Shown here: positions 17,769 to 25,056 of the stretch, in pieces | Numbering within the stretch: position 1 is the first letter of the stretch | Layout of the letters: the number at the start of each line of letters is the position of its first letter | DNA from: Spirochaetia bacterium | GTDB taxonomy: Bacteria; Spirochaetota; Spirochaetia; DAHUYW01 | Assembly (NCBI GenBank): GCA_030041455.1 | Contig: JASHNV010000063.1 | Location: forward strand, 1 to 38,193 | Direction of reading: 5' to 3' | DNA: 38,193 nt | Notes under the pieces: generated by a model | The model's input: the letters and a program-made list of their open reading frames with translations, nothing else | What the model was told of the DNA's origin: nothing | Database searches by the model: none | Translations under genes and position numbers: made by a program

Positions 17769-20375
17769 ATGACGGCGGATGCGACGCCGATGATGCTTCA
17801 GTACCAACGATTCAAGAAGCGCCACGCCGACGCCGTGCTGTTCTTCCGTCTCGGCGATTTCTACGAGATGTTCGAGCGGGACGCCCGCGAGGTGAGCGCG
17901 CTCCTCGGCCTGACGCTTACCTCGAGGAACGGCGTGCCCATGTGCGGCGTCCCCTATCACGCCGCGCGCGGCTACATCGCGCGGCTCCTGAAGGCGGGCA
18001 AGAAGATCGCCATCTGCGAGCAGCTCGCCCTCGCGAAGGACGGCAAGGGGCTCGCAGACCGCGAGATCGTCGAAATCATTACCCCCGGCACCGTCGTGGA
18101 CCTGGACTATCTCGACGCGGCGTCGAACAACTACCTCGTTTCCCTCGCCCGCTCAGGAGCGCGGGTCTCGCTCTCCTACATCGATCTTTCGACCGGCGAG
18201 TTTCTCGCTACCGAGTTTCCGTGGGACGAGCGCGCCGAGCGCCTCCGCAAGGAGCTTTCCCGTCTCCGACCGCACGAGATCATCGTACAAGAGTCGCTCG
18301 CGAACGACGATCCGACGGTGAGGGACATTCTCGAGACGCTGCCGAGCCTCACGGTCAACCGGTATCCCGACTGGTCCTTCGACCTCGAGGCGAGCAGACA
18401 GACGCTCACGCGCCAGTTCGGGACGGCGTCCCTCAAGGGCTTCGGGATCGGCGAGGAGGACGCGGCGATCCTCTCGGCGGGCGTCGTCATCGACTACGTC
18501 GCCGAGACTTCGAAAAGCCTCCTCCCGCACGTCCGCTCGCTCAAACGCTACGACGATTCCGAGTTTCTCGGCATCGACGACTCCACCCAGCGCAACCTCG
18601 AGATCGTCGCGAACCTCCACGACGGAAGCTCGAGGTATACGCTTGCCGAGGTGCTCGACTACACCAAGACCGCCATGGGCTCGCGGCGGCTGAAAGACTG
18701 GCTCATGCGGCCGCTGCGTTCCGTCGAGGCCATCTCGTCGCGCCTGTCGAAGGTCGAGAGCCTCCATCGGAACCAGACGCTGCTCGCCTCGACGCGCGAG
18801 GGCCTCGCGGGAATCCTCGACCTCGAGCGGCTCGCCGCGCGGGTGGCGATGGACAAGGCGCACGGGAAGGACCTCGTCGCGCTCCGCTCCTCGCTTGCCT
18901 CCTTCGAGCGTCTCGCCGAGCTCCTCGATCCGTGGAGCGAGCTCCGCTTCTGGAGCCAGGAGCAGCGCGGGAGGATCCTCGCGCTCCGGGAGCTTCTCGA
19001 CCGCGCGATCGACGACGAGGCCTCGATCCTCCTCACCGAAGGGCATCTCATCAAGAAGGGCTACGACGGCAAGCTCGACGAGCTACGGTCCCAGAAGGAC
19101 AACAGCCGACAGATTCTCGACGGCTATCTCGCCGAGGTGCGCCGCGCCTCGGGGATCGCCTCCCTGAAGCTCCGCTACAACCGGATCATCGGTCACTACT
19201 TCGAGGTGACGAAGTCGAACCTCGACGCGGTCCCTTCGGACTTCATCCGAAGGCAGTCGCTTCTCGGCGGAGAGCGCTTCACCACGGAGCGCCTCGCGGA
19301 TATCGAGAGCGCGCTCAACAGCGCCACCGAGACCGCGATGGAGGTCGAACGCGCGCTGTTTCTCGAGGTGCGCGACCGGGTCAAACGGGAGGTCGCTCTC
19401 CTCGGCGAGGCGGCCGGAGAGATAGGCGCGCTCGACGCGCTGCAGTCCTTCGCCCAGGCGGCCACGGTGCGGGGCTACGTCCGACCGGCTGTCGAGGATT
19501 CCGGCAGACTCTTCATCGCGGAAGGTCGCCATCCGGTCGTCGAGGCGAGCCTTCCCCCGGGAGATTTTGTCCCGAACGGATGCGCCCTCGACGCGGACGG
19601 AGTCTCCTTCGCGCTCATCACCGGGCCGAACATGGCGGGCAAGTCGACCTTCCTGCGCCAGGTGGCCCTGATCGCGCTCATGGCGCAAGCCGGCTCGTTC
19701 GTCCCGGCTCGAGAGGCGACCGTCGGAGTTCTCGACCGCGTGTTCTGCCGCGTCGGCGCCTCGGACAACCTCGCTCGAGGCGAATCGACCTTCATGGTCG
19801 AGATGACCGAGACCGCGAATATTCTTCGCGGCGCCGGGAGGCGCAGCCTCGTGATCATGGACGAGGTCGGCCGGGGCACCGGCACGAACGACGGCCTCGC
19901 CATCGCCTGGGCGGTCACGGAGTGCCTCGTGCGGGCAATCGGCGCGAAAACGCTCTTCGCGACCCACTACCACGAGCTCACCTCCCTTGCGGATTCGCGG
20001 ATCCGAAACTTCTCGATGGAGGTGAGCGAGCACGACCGGGAAATCGTGTTCCTGCGGCGTATCGTCGAAGGACCTTCCGCGAACTCCTACGGCGTGCACG
20101 TCGCGCGCCTTGCAGGCGTGCCGGATGAGGTCGTCGAACGCGCCTCGGAGGTGCTTGCCTTCCTCATCGAGCGGGAAGGACGGCGAGCCGCCCTCCCCTC
20201 GGCCGCCGCCGGGCGGGAGCGGCGGCCGGCCGACGTCCAGGCCTCGCTCTTCGCTCCGGAGGCGTTGATCGGCGAGGAGCTGCGCTCGCTCTCGGTCGAC
20301 CGGCTGACTCCCCTCGACGCCCTCAACCTCGTCGCGAAATGGAAGCGCGAGGTCGAGGGCGGCCAGGCGTCCTAG
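17769..20375 (+). CDS. mutS: DNA mismatch repair ATPase MutS
   Basis: MutS recognises mismatches and small loops. The 868-residue protein has the mismatch-binding Phe-x-Glu motif (F31, E33 in RLGDFYEMF) and the connector and lever domains. It also has the clamp region (LRYNRIIGHYFEVTKSN), Walker A TGPNMAGKST (about 617-626), Walker B SLVIMDEVGRGT and the FATHYHEL motif. The C-terminal SLSVDRLTPLDALNLVAKWK segment matches the tetramerisation/helix-turn-helix tail seen in full-length MutS. It starts 51 bases after skp and probably shares that transcript; an in-frame ATG eight codons in is an alternative start. Confidence 0.97.
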   Translation: MTADATPMMLQYQRFKKRHADAVLFFRLGDFYEMFERDAREVSALLGLTLTSRNGVPMCGVPYHAARGYIARLLKAGKKIAICEQLALAKDGKGLADREIVEIITPGTVVDLDYLDAASNNYLVSLARSGARVSLSYIDLSTGEFLATEFPWDERAERLRKELSRLRPHEIIVQESLANDDPTVRDILETLPSLTVNRYPDWSFDLEASRQTLTRQFGTASLKGFGIGEEDAAILSAGVVIDYVAETSKSLLPHVRSLKRYDDSEFLGIDDSTQRNLEIVANLHDGSSRYTLAEVLDYTKTAMGSRRLKDWLMRPLRSVEAISSRLSKVESLHRNQTLLASTREGLAGILDLERLAARVAMDKAHGKDLVALRSSLASFERLAELLDPWSELRFWSQEQRGRILALRELLDRAIDDEASILLTEGHLIKKGYDGKLDELRSQKDNSRQILDGYLAEVRRASGIASLKLRYNRIIGHYFEVTKSNLDAVPSDFIRRQSLLGGERFTTERLADIESALNSATETAMEVERALFLEVRDRVKREVALLGEAAGEIGALDALQSFAQAATVRGYVRPAVEDSGRLFIAEGRHPVVEASLPPGDFVPNGCALDADGVSFALITGPNMAGKSTFLRQVALIALMAQAGSFVPAREATVGVLDRVFCRVGASDNLARGESTFMVEMTETANILRGAGRRSLVIMDEVGRGTGTNDGLAIAWAVTECLVRAIGAKTLFATHYHELTSLADSRIRNFSMEVSEHDREIVFLRRIVEGPSANSYGVHVARLAGVPDEVVERASEVLAFLIEREGRRAALPSAAAGRERRPADVQASLFAPEALIGEELRSLSVDRLTPLDALNLVAKWKREVEGGQAS

Positions 20376-20405: not shown

Positions 20406-20434
20406 TTGACATCGTCTGAGCTTGTTGCTATCCT
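20406..20434 (+). promoter_or_regulatory. Promoter of the rimP-nusA-infB operon
   Basis: A perfect -35 TTGACA (20406-20411), a 17-base spacer and a -10 TATCCT (20429-20434). The -10 box is identical to those at yebC and the PEGA/SUMF1-fold gene. Confidence 0.72.
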
Positions 20435-20465
20435 CTCCATAGTCATCTGAGTTGGGTTCGAGGGG

Positions 20466-20494
20466 AAAAAGAGTCGGAAAGCGACTCTTTTTTT
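20466..20494 (+). terminator. Intrinsic-terminator hairpin in the rimP leader
   Basis: An AAAGAGTCG arm and its exact complement CGACTCTTT flank a five-base loop, followed by an unbroken T-run to 20494. The structure lies after mutS, whose stop is at 20375, and also about 25 bases after the predicted start of the rimP operon transcript. It can therefore end mutS transcripts and act as an attenuator for rimP-nusA-infB. Confidence 0.82.
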
Positions 20495-20510
20495 GTAGGT
20501 GGTGGGCGCC

Positions 20511-20978
20511 GTGGAGCACCGAGCGCGCGCCGACCGGCTTGAGCCGGTCGTGCGGCTTCTCGTCGAGAAGATGGGGTTCGAAATCGTGGAACTGAGATCG
20601 GGCAGTGCCCGGCAGGCGTTGCGCGTGAGCTTGGTCATCCACAAGCCGGGCGGGGTGAGCCTCGAGGACTGCTCGTCGGTCTACCGGAACGTTCTTCCTC
20701 GAATCGAGGTGGCCGAAAACCGGCGGGACGTCCATCTCGAGGTCTCCTCCCCGGGGCTGTCCCGGGAGCTCAGGTCGGCCGAAGAGTTCAAGGTCTTCGC
20801 AGGAAGCGCGGTGAAGGTGCTCTCAGGCGGCCAGGCCGAATGGATCGAAGGGACGATCGCGGGCTCGACCGAAGCGGCGGTCGTTCTCGAAAAGGCCGGC
20901 AAAACCACCGAGCATCTCTACCGCGACATCCTCAAGGCGAGGCTCGATCCGGAGCCGCGAGGGGGGGAGGGGAGGTAA
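20511..20978 (+). CDS. rimP: Ribosome maturation factor RimP
   Basis: RimP assists late assembly of the 30S subunit. The protein (155 residues from the GTG at 20511) has the N-terminal fold with EPVVRLLVEKMGFEIVELR, the conserved GVSLEDCSSVYRNVLPRIE region and the LEVSSPGLSRELR motif that is nearly invariant. The C-terminal SH3-like part follows. The GTG at 20511 has AGGTGG eight bases upstream. In-frame GTG codons at 20499 and 20502 overlap that site and are less likely. nusA begins two bases after its stop. Confidence 0.92.
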   Translation: MEHRARADRLEPVVRLLVEKMGFEIVELRSGSARQALRVSLVIHKPGGVSLEDCSSVYRNVLPRIEVAENRRDVHLEVSSPGLSRELRSAEEFKVFAGSAVKVLSGGQAEWIEGTIAGSTEAAVVLEKAGKTTEHLYRDILKARLDPEPRGGEGR

Positions 20979-20980
20979 CA

Positions 20981-22456
20981 ATGGCAGCAGGGTTGGCCGA
21001 CGCGATCAAAGGGCTCGTGCAAGAGAAAGGGATTTCCGAAGAGCTGGTGATTAAGACCATCGAGGATTTCCTTCTCGCGGCCTACAAGCGAAAGTTCGGC
21101 ACCTCGGACAACGCCGTGGTGAAGTTCAGCGAGGACGGGAGCGACGTCGGCATCTATGCCCGCAAGAGCATCGTCGAGGAGGTCGACGACCCCGTCACGG
21201 AGATCGAGCTCGAGGAAGCGCTTCAATACAACGAGGAGTGCGAGATCGGCGACGAGCTTCTCATCGAGATCAACCCCCAGGAGTTTGACCGGGTCGCGGT
21301 GCAAAGCGCGAAGCAGAAGGCAAAGCAGACCCTCCGCGAGATCCAAAAGGACACGCTGTACTCGGAGTTCAAGGACAAGGTCGGCGAGATGATCATCGGC
21401 TACTACCAGCGCGAGCGCAACGGCAACATCTTCGTCGATCTCGGGAAGACCGAAGGCATCCTGCCGAAGCGCTTCCAGTCTCCGCGCGAGATCTACCGGC
21501 CGAACGACCGCATCAAGGCGCTCATTTACGAGGTCAACAAGAGCCCGTCGGGGCTGCAGATCGTGCTTTCCAGGACGCACACGGATTTCGTGAAGCGCAT
21601 CTTCGAGCTCGAGGTCCCCGAGATCTACGACCGCACGGTCGAGATCTTCAAGATCGTCCGGGAGCCCGGCTATCGGACCAAGATCGCGGTCTATTCCAAC
21701 CGCGAGGACGTGGATCCGGTCGGGGCCTGCGTCGGCATGAAGGGCGTGCGGATCCAGGCGATCGTTCGCGAGCTCGAGGGGGAGAAGATCGACATCCTGA
21801 AGTACGACAGCGACCCGAGGGAGTTCATCAAGAACGCGCTGTCGCCCGCGGACGTGGACACCGTCGTCGTCCTCGACGAAGCGAAGCGGCAATCCCTTGC
21901 GGTGGTAGCCGAGAACCAGCTCTCCCTCGCGATCGGCAAGCAGGGCCTGAACGTGCGCCTCGCGAACCGGCTCGTCGATTGGAGCATCGACGTGAAGACC
22001 GAGGCGCAGTTCGCCGAGATGGACATCACGGTGGAGTCGAAAAAGGCGGTTTCGGCGCTGTTCCACGACTTCGACGAGGAAGAGATCACGAATATCGCGG
22101 AGCTTCCGGGAATCTCGGAGCGGCTCGTCGAGCTCCTCAAGCAGAACGGCATCGAGCTCATCGAGTCCCTCATCGCCATGGACGGCGAGCAGCTCTCCAA
22201 GCTCGAGGGCATGTCGCCCCAGGACGTCCAGACCATTCAGTCGATCATCGCCGACAACGTCGACATCATCGAGGAGGAGCCCGCCCGGACGGAGGCGGCC
22301 GAGGCGACGGCGAAGGACGAGCCGGAAGCCGAATCGTACGAGTGCCCGGAATGCGGCTCGCCGATCACGGTCGACATGACTTCTTGTCCAAATTGCGGCG
22401 TTGGATTAAGCTTCCAGCTTGAGGACGAAGAGGCTCCGGGGGAGCCGAAGAGCTAA
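20981..22456 (+). CDS. nusA: Transcription termination/antitermination factor NusA with a C-terminal zinc ribbon
   Basis: NusA binds RNA polymerase and nascent RNA and tunes pausing, termination and antitermination. The 491-residue protein has the N-terminal polymerase-binding domain, S1 (about 135-200, GNIFVDLGKTEGILPKRFQ), two KH domains (VGACVGMKGVRIQAIVREL and LSLAIGKQGLNVRLANRL) and helix-hairpin-helix repeats (ELPGISERLVELLKQNGI). The unusual part is the end: residues 453-472 contain C455, C458, C469 and C472 in a CxxC-x10-CxxC zinc-ribbon pattern, then an acidic tail. GGAGGT precedes the ATG at 20981. The longer frame reaching back to 20840 runs through rimP and is rejected. Confidence 0.95.
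   Translation: MAAGLADAIKGLVQEKGISEELVIKTIEDFLLAAYKRKFGTSDNAVVKFSEDGSDVGIYARKSIVEEVDDPVTEIELEEALQYNEECEIGDELLIEINPQEFDRVAVQSAKQKAKQTLREIQKDTLYSEFKDKVGEMIIGYYQRERNGNIFVDLGKTEGILPKRFQSPREIYRPNDRIKALIYEVNKSPSGLQIVLSRTHTDFVKRIFELEVPEIYDRTVEIFKIVREPGYRTKIAVYSNREDVDPVGACVGMKGVRIQAIVRELEGEKIDILKYDSDPREFIKNALSPADVDTVVVLDEAKRQSLAVVAENQLSLAIGKQGLNVRLANRLVDWSIDVKTEAQFAEMDITVESKKAVSALFHDFDEEEITNIAELPGISERLVELLKQNGIELIESLIAMDGEQLSKLEGMSPQDVQTIQSIIADNVDIIEEEPARTEAAEATAKDEPEAESYECPECGSPITVDMTSCPNCGVGLSFQLEDEEAPGEPKS
22337..22396 (+). other. Zinc-ribbon segment at the NusA C-terminus
   Basis: Two CxxC pairs (ECPECGS and SCPNCGV) separated by ten residues. This is the classic four-cysteine zinc ribbon, fused in frame after the acidic linker of NusA. 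Confidence 0.8.

Positions 22457-22527: not shown

Positions 22528-25048
<2,521 letters not shown>

Positions 25049-25056
<8 letters not shown>

Follow-up and report, generated by a model that had tools for sequence, protein, structure and literature searches.

A terminator-like hairpin close behind the promoter of the spirochaete rimP-nusA-infB operon: a probable attenuator and apparent variant of the rimP-leader

The leader of the rimP-nusA-infB operon, an operon that encodes both NusA and IF-2, has been described in other bacteria. For Naville & Gautheret (2010, PMC2965389), the ‘rimP-leader’ ranked as the most ubiquitous attenuator; they gave its stem as GGGc..gCCC, noted the lack of an antiterminator and proposed NusA as the protein factor. 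In S. agalactiae, RNA-seq placed termination in the gbs0413-gbs0418 leader 31 nt after the transcription start site, before rimP-nusA, and NusA feedback was suggested (PMC4448216). A review reports autoregulation of NusA in B. subtilis through NusA-stimulated intrinsic termination in the leader of its operon (PMC12288461). The Rfam family RF01770 (rimP), with a model of 102 positions, takes its name from the rimP leader.

We analyzed a stretch of 38,193 nt of spirochaete DNA (the window), in which Pfam matches gave the gene order mutS - promoter - leader - hairpin - rimP - nusA - infB - rbfA - truB - rpsO, with pnp next after rpsO by reading frame; nusA (Pfam) is situated downstream of the terminator, within the rimP operon (Table 1). 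The rimP start is most likely the GTG at 20511, since the nearest relative also has a GTG there, preceded by an identical TTTTTTTGTAGGTGG, and the product matches RimP_N. At its C-terminal end NusA carries a helix-hairpin-helix followed by a zinc ribbon (Zn_ribbon_3, E 3.3e-07; window positions 22337-22405). A tmRNA gene (Rfam RF00023, 138.9 bits), unreported by ARAGORN, occupies positions 1-334 of the minus strand and is truncated there by the end of the window.

Table 1. Positions of the leader elements and adjoining genes in the window
Feature	Positions	Strand	Description	Support
mutS	17769..20375	+	Upstream gene; end ~30 bp before the rimP promoter	
rimP operon promoter	20406..20434	+	TTGACA (20406-20411), 17-nt spacer, TATCCT (20429-20434)	Same element at same distance in relatives
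Leader before hairpin	20441..20465	+	Very short, untranslated	Start site predicted
Terminator hairpin	20466..20492	+	5′ arm AAAAAGAGTCG (20466-20476), loop GAAAG (20477-20481), 3′ arm CGACTCTTTTT (20482-20492); core GAGTCG/CGACTC	
T-run	20488..20494	+	Seven T; predicted RNA release region	T-run in nearly all class members
Shine-Dalgarno-like AGGTGG	20497..20502	+	Directly 3′ of the T-run	Identical in nearest relative
rimP	20511..20978	+	GTG start, 155 aa; first operon gene	PF02576 (RimP_N), E 3.6e-12
nusA	20981..22456	+	491 aa; NusA_N, KH, C-terminal HHH and zinc ribbon; proposed feedback factor	
infB (IF-2)	22528..25056	+	Downstream operon gene	Pfam

An earlier note on this DNA had claimed a strong promoter followed after about 25 transcribed bases by a perfect nine-base-pair hairpin, with a T-run just before rimP. 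The promoter is as claimed, a strong one with an extended -10 (TGc ahead of TATCCT), and the start predicted from it, near A20441, falls ~25 nt ahead of the hairpin. The T-run is likewise in place, and the pairing is indeed perfect, though the stem is longer than stated, with 11 Watson-Crick pairs (a 6-bp core plus 5 A-T pairs extending into the T-run). The RNA of positions 20464-20496 was predicted to fold at -15.7 kcal/mol (z -4.65), and 0 of 200 shuffles did as well. On either strand of the 38-kb window this is the sole hairpin with at least 6 bp, at least 3 GC and a run of at least six T; the chance expectation for such hairpins is 0.01 per strand of the window (first-order Markov null). 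A generic terminator scan of the window missed it, probably on account of a stem that extends into the T-run.

Furthermore, considering rimP loci of the same spirochaete class, taken to be Spirochaetia from its named relatives, we saw a hairpin with a T-run before rimP in 57 of 58. From the end of the -10 element to the hairpin the median distance was 28 nt (10-90% range 25-33), promoters scoring at least 9/12 were present in 45 of the 57 class leaders versus 17% of shuffles, and the class leaders measured ~53 nt between the predicted start and the last T of the run. The T-tracts were mostly 6-8 uninterrupted T. In an alignment of 48 class members (Borrelia-like leaders and one odd locus excluded), 95% of stem cells were paired; double changes occurred at 7 of 9 pairs, with 42 double-change cells versus 10.2 in shuffles (a count uncorrected for relatedness), and in slid-partner controls the figures were far lower and the covariation signal was lost. 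The central C-G pair of GAGTCG was invariant. We take the hairpin to be selected both as RNA and as sequence.

The motif GAGTC..GACTC followed by five T had exactly one match in the 3.39-Mb genome, at the rimP leader, and in relatives its matches were mostly at rimP. The same site was the only genome match of model R1 at E<=0.5. The model recovered (E<0.004) the leaders of nine named Spirochaetota loci outside its building set, whose independence is partial, as some may be close to genomes in R1; it found no rimP leader of another phylum at E<1. Of twelve model matches away from rimP in other genomes, most were immediately downstream of a gene or flanked by convergent genes; no evident leader was among them. 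As these resemble ordinary 3′ terminators, a regulon sharing the motif was rejected; genome match and non-rimP matches together indicate that the motif is specific to the rimP leader and is not a general feature of terminators.

For comparison, rimP leaders of other phyla (Bacillota, Acidobacteriota, Deltaproteobacteria, Nitrospirota and others) were gathered by a NusA-guided scan. AGTGGG..CCCRCT was present upstream of rimP in 34 of these 50 loci versus 0 of 488 control segments, and in none of the 57 class leaders; AGTCG..CGRCT, conversely, was present in 33 of the 57 and in none of the 50. No AGTGGG..CCCACT site was found at rimP in 60 class genomes. Where promoters could be predicted in other phyla, the hairpin began at a median of 29 nt after the -10 element; the stems used here were selected by core and so give no evidence for the core itself. 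The terminator score (d'Aubenton-type) had a median near 19.5 in spirochaetes (~19.5 in the window) and near 0 in Bacillota, whose T-tracts are interrupted (TTTC..).

The window element is thus like the rimP-leader of Naville & Gautheret in having, within the 5′-leader of rimP-nusA-infB, a conserved terminator-like hairpin with a T-run, an operon-specific motif and no antiterminator, and unlike it in its core, GAGTCG..CGACTC instead of GGGc..gCCC (PMC2965389). RF01770, searched at a threshold as loose as E<=10, gave no match in the window and so fell short of its gathering cut-off; none of 198 genomes of the phylum scored above that cut-off, and among 14 controls E. coli alone did. Rfam at gathering and permissive thresholds reported nothing in the window relevant to the leader. 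With GGGc..gCCC absent and RF01770 undetected, we classed the element as a spirochaete variant and not as a sequence member; by comparison of sequences it appears to be the spirochaete-specific form of the known leader, with GGG replaced by CG. The published leader is in this way extended to a phylum in which Rfam misses it, with the addition of a promoter-distance constraint, which was measured here and is unmentioned in the available part of the original description (PMC2965389). Neither the GGG to CG change nor the fixed distance was found described in the open-licence literature (supplementary lists aside), and we claim no priority. Most sampled phyla have one core and spirochaetes a different one, which speaks for sequence-specific recognition and against a generic terminator; as the core has been swapped in nature, who recognises the hairpin can readily be tested.

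The earlier note had also suggested a terminator-like attenuator in the short leader of rimP. Strong support for it comes from conservation, a fixed position relative to the promoter, covariation and the persistence of the leader whatever the upstream gene, and terminator-like leaders before rimP are indeed on record in other bacteria (PMC4448216, PMC2965389). Autoregulation by NusA through the spirochaete leader, its further suggestion, is plausible by analogy. The element probably serves the operon as a promoter-proximal intrinsic-terminator attenuator with negative feedback by NusA. RNA polymerase would start near 20441 and some 25 nt later transcribe the sequence-conserved hairpin; at the T-run it would either release an RNA predicted to be ~50-54 nt long or continue into rimP. 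At high NusA, folding of the hairpin and pausing would be stabilised and operon expression would fall; at low NusA, more polymerases would pass the terminator.

Action in the same mode as in other bacteria is the best explanation, as the window element has their anatomy. The S. agalactiae leader, in another phylum, is also very short with an intrinsic terminator, and was likened on the strength of its published description (PMC4448216). For B. subtilis such feedback on NusA is reported (PMC12288461); however, the sampled Bacillota T-tracts are interrupted and the spirochaete ones mostly are not. A seven-T tract with a stable stem could terminate without NusA, so the NusA dependence in spirochaetes may differ. 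The main text of a paper on RNA ends in the spirochaete Borrelia (PMC10319736) names no rimP, infB, bb0799 or bb0800, and nusA only with regard to termination generally.

No consistent alternative fold was found that could act as an antiterminator: p was <0.05 in 5 of 41 leaders and 0.48 in the window, and the mean z of -0.58 over the 41 leaders is a weak, slightly negative tendency. As only ~22-25 nt are available, an antiterminator or a leader peptide was rejected; an AUG was present in 18 of the 41 leaders. With no alternative fold visible and the Shine-Dalgarno-like element downstream of the T-run, a polymerase-bound factor would most likely decide between termination and read-through, above all NusA, which the operon itself encodes.

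One could speculate further on the fixed hairpin position (~20 nt after the start) in several phyla. The terminator would be reached during sigma release or just after it, termination would report how fast NusA joins, and the spirochaete core change from GGG to CG would mark a co-evolving, sequence-specific contact with the transcription machinery. We regard this elaboration of NusA feedback as tentative and rather doubtful.

A simpler reading is a constitutive brake: a fixed fraction of transcripts would be terminated, setting operon output with no feedback from NusA or anything else. The strong T-tract and the lack of a visible switch structure are in line with this; yet a fixed brake leaves the conservation of a near-unique core sequence unexplained, and the feedback reported for the same operon's leader in B. 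subtilis (PMC12288461) also speaks against it. We think it unlikely. Less probable again is that termination is incidental and that the 5′ stem-loop serves to shield the mRNA from decay or to position the ribosome. In the window and in the nearest relative the hairpin does stand close to the 5′-end, immediately ahead of the Shine-Dalgarno-like element; across class loci, however, its distance to the start codon ranges from ~6 to >100 nt, and in nearly all class members a long T-run comes straight after the stem.

The closeness of the mutS end to the promoter, with no other terminator visible before rimP, could suggest that the hairpin is merely the 3′ terminator of mutS without a regulatory role for rimP, a reading we give very little credence. 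The rimP promoter stands between the two. The upstream gene (named from C-terminal sequences) is mutS in the window and at some other loci, comF-like at several, unrelated at others and divergent at two examined loci, and the leader persists. Were the hairpin to serve the upstream gene as its terminator, no constant spacing from a downstream promoter would be expected, and no such hairpin behind a divergent gene, which largely refutes this reading; as the distance is kept whatever the upstream gene, the hairpin is best seen as rimP's own leader. Equally improbable is RimP, or another ribosome-related product, as the feedback factor, with the hairpin mimicking 16S rRNA: GAGTYG is present in spirochaete 16S helix 44 (h44), but h44 has GAGTTTG, GAGCTGG and GAGCCGG in Brevibacillus, Clostridium and Thermobrachium, which have GAGTGGG leaders, genome G025 has GAGTTG in h44 against GAGTCG in its leader, no 16S hairpin of the leader form was found, and mimicry was rejected, as the core of the leader fails to follow h44 from taxon to taxon.

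Across the phylum at large, leaders of the GAGTGG.. form are present alongside those of the GAGTC.. form, and some families are without a recognisable hairpin, so that the hairpin is not indispensable. Loci L069-L071, L073 and L078 (three of them from genomes of family f61) lack it and have a TTGAATAT / TATAAT-like element close before rimP. Three Borrelia-like leaders have a diverged stem. In Treponema leaders L107-L110 a near-inverted core, GGACTCG..CGAGTCC, replaces GAGTCG..CGACTC at the same place, and a Treponema contig (L104) carries a second terminator-like hairpin at ~853-890, ~120 nt upstream of the rimP-leader hairpin.
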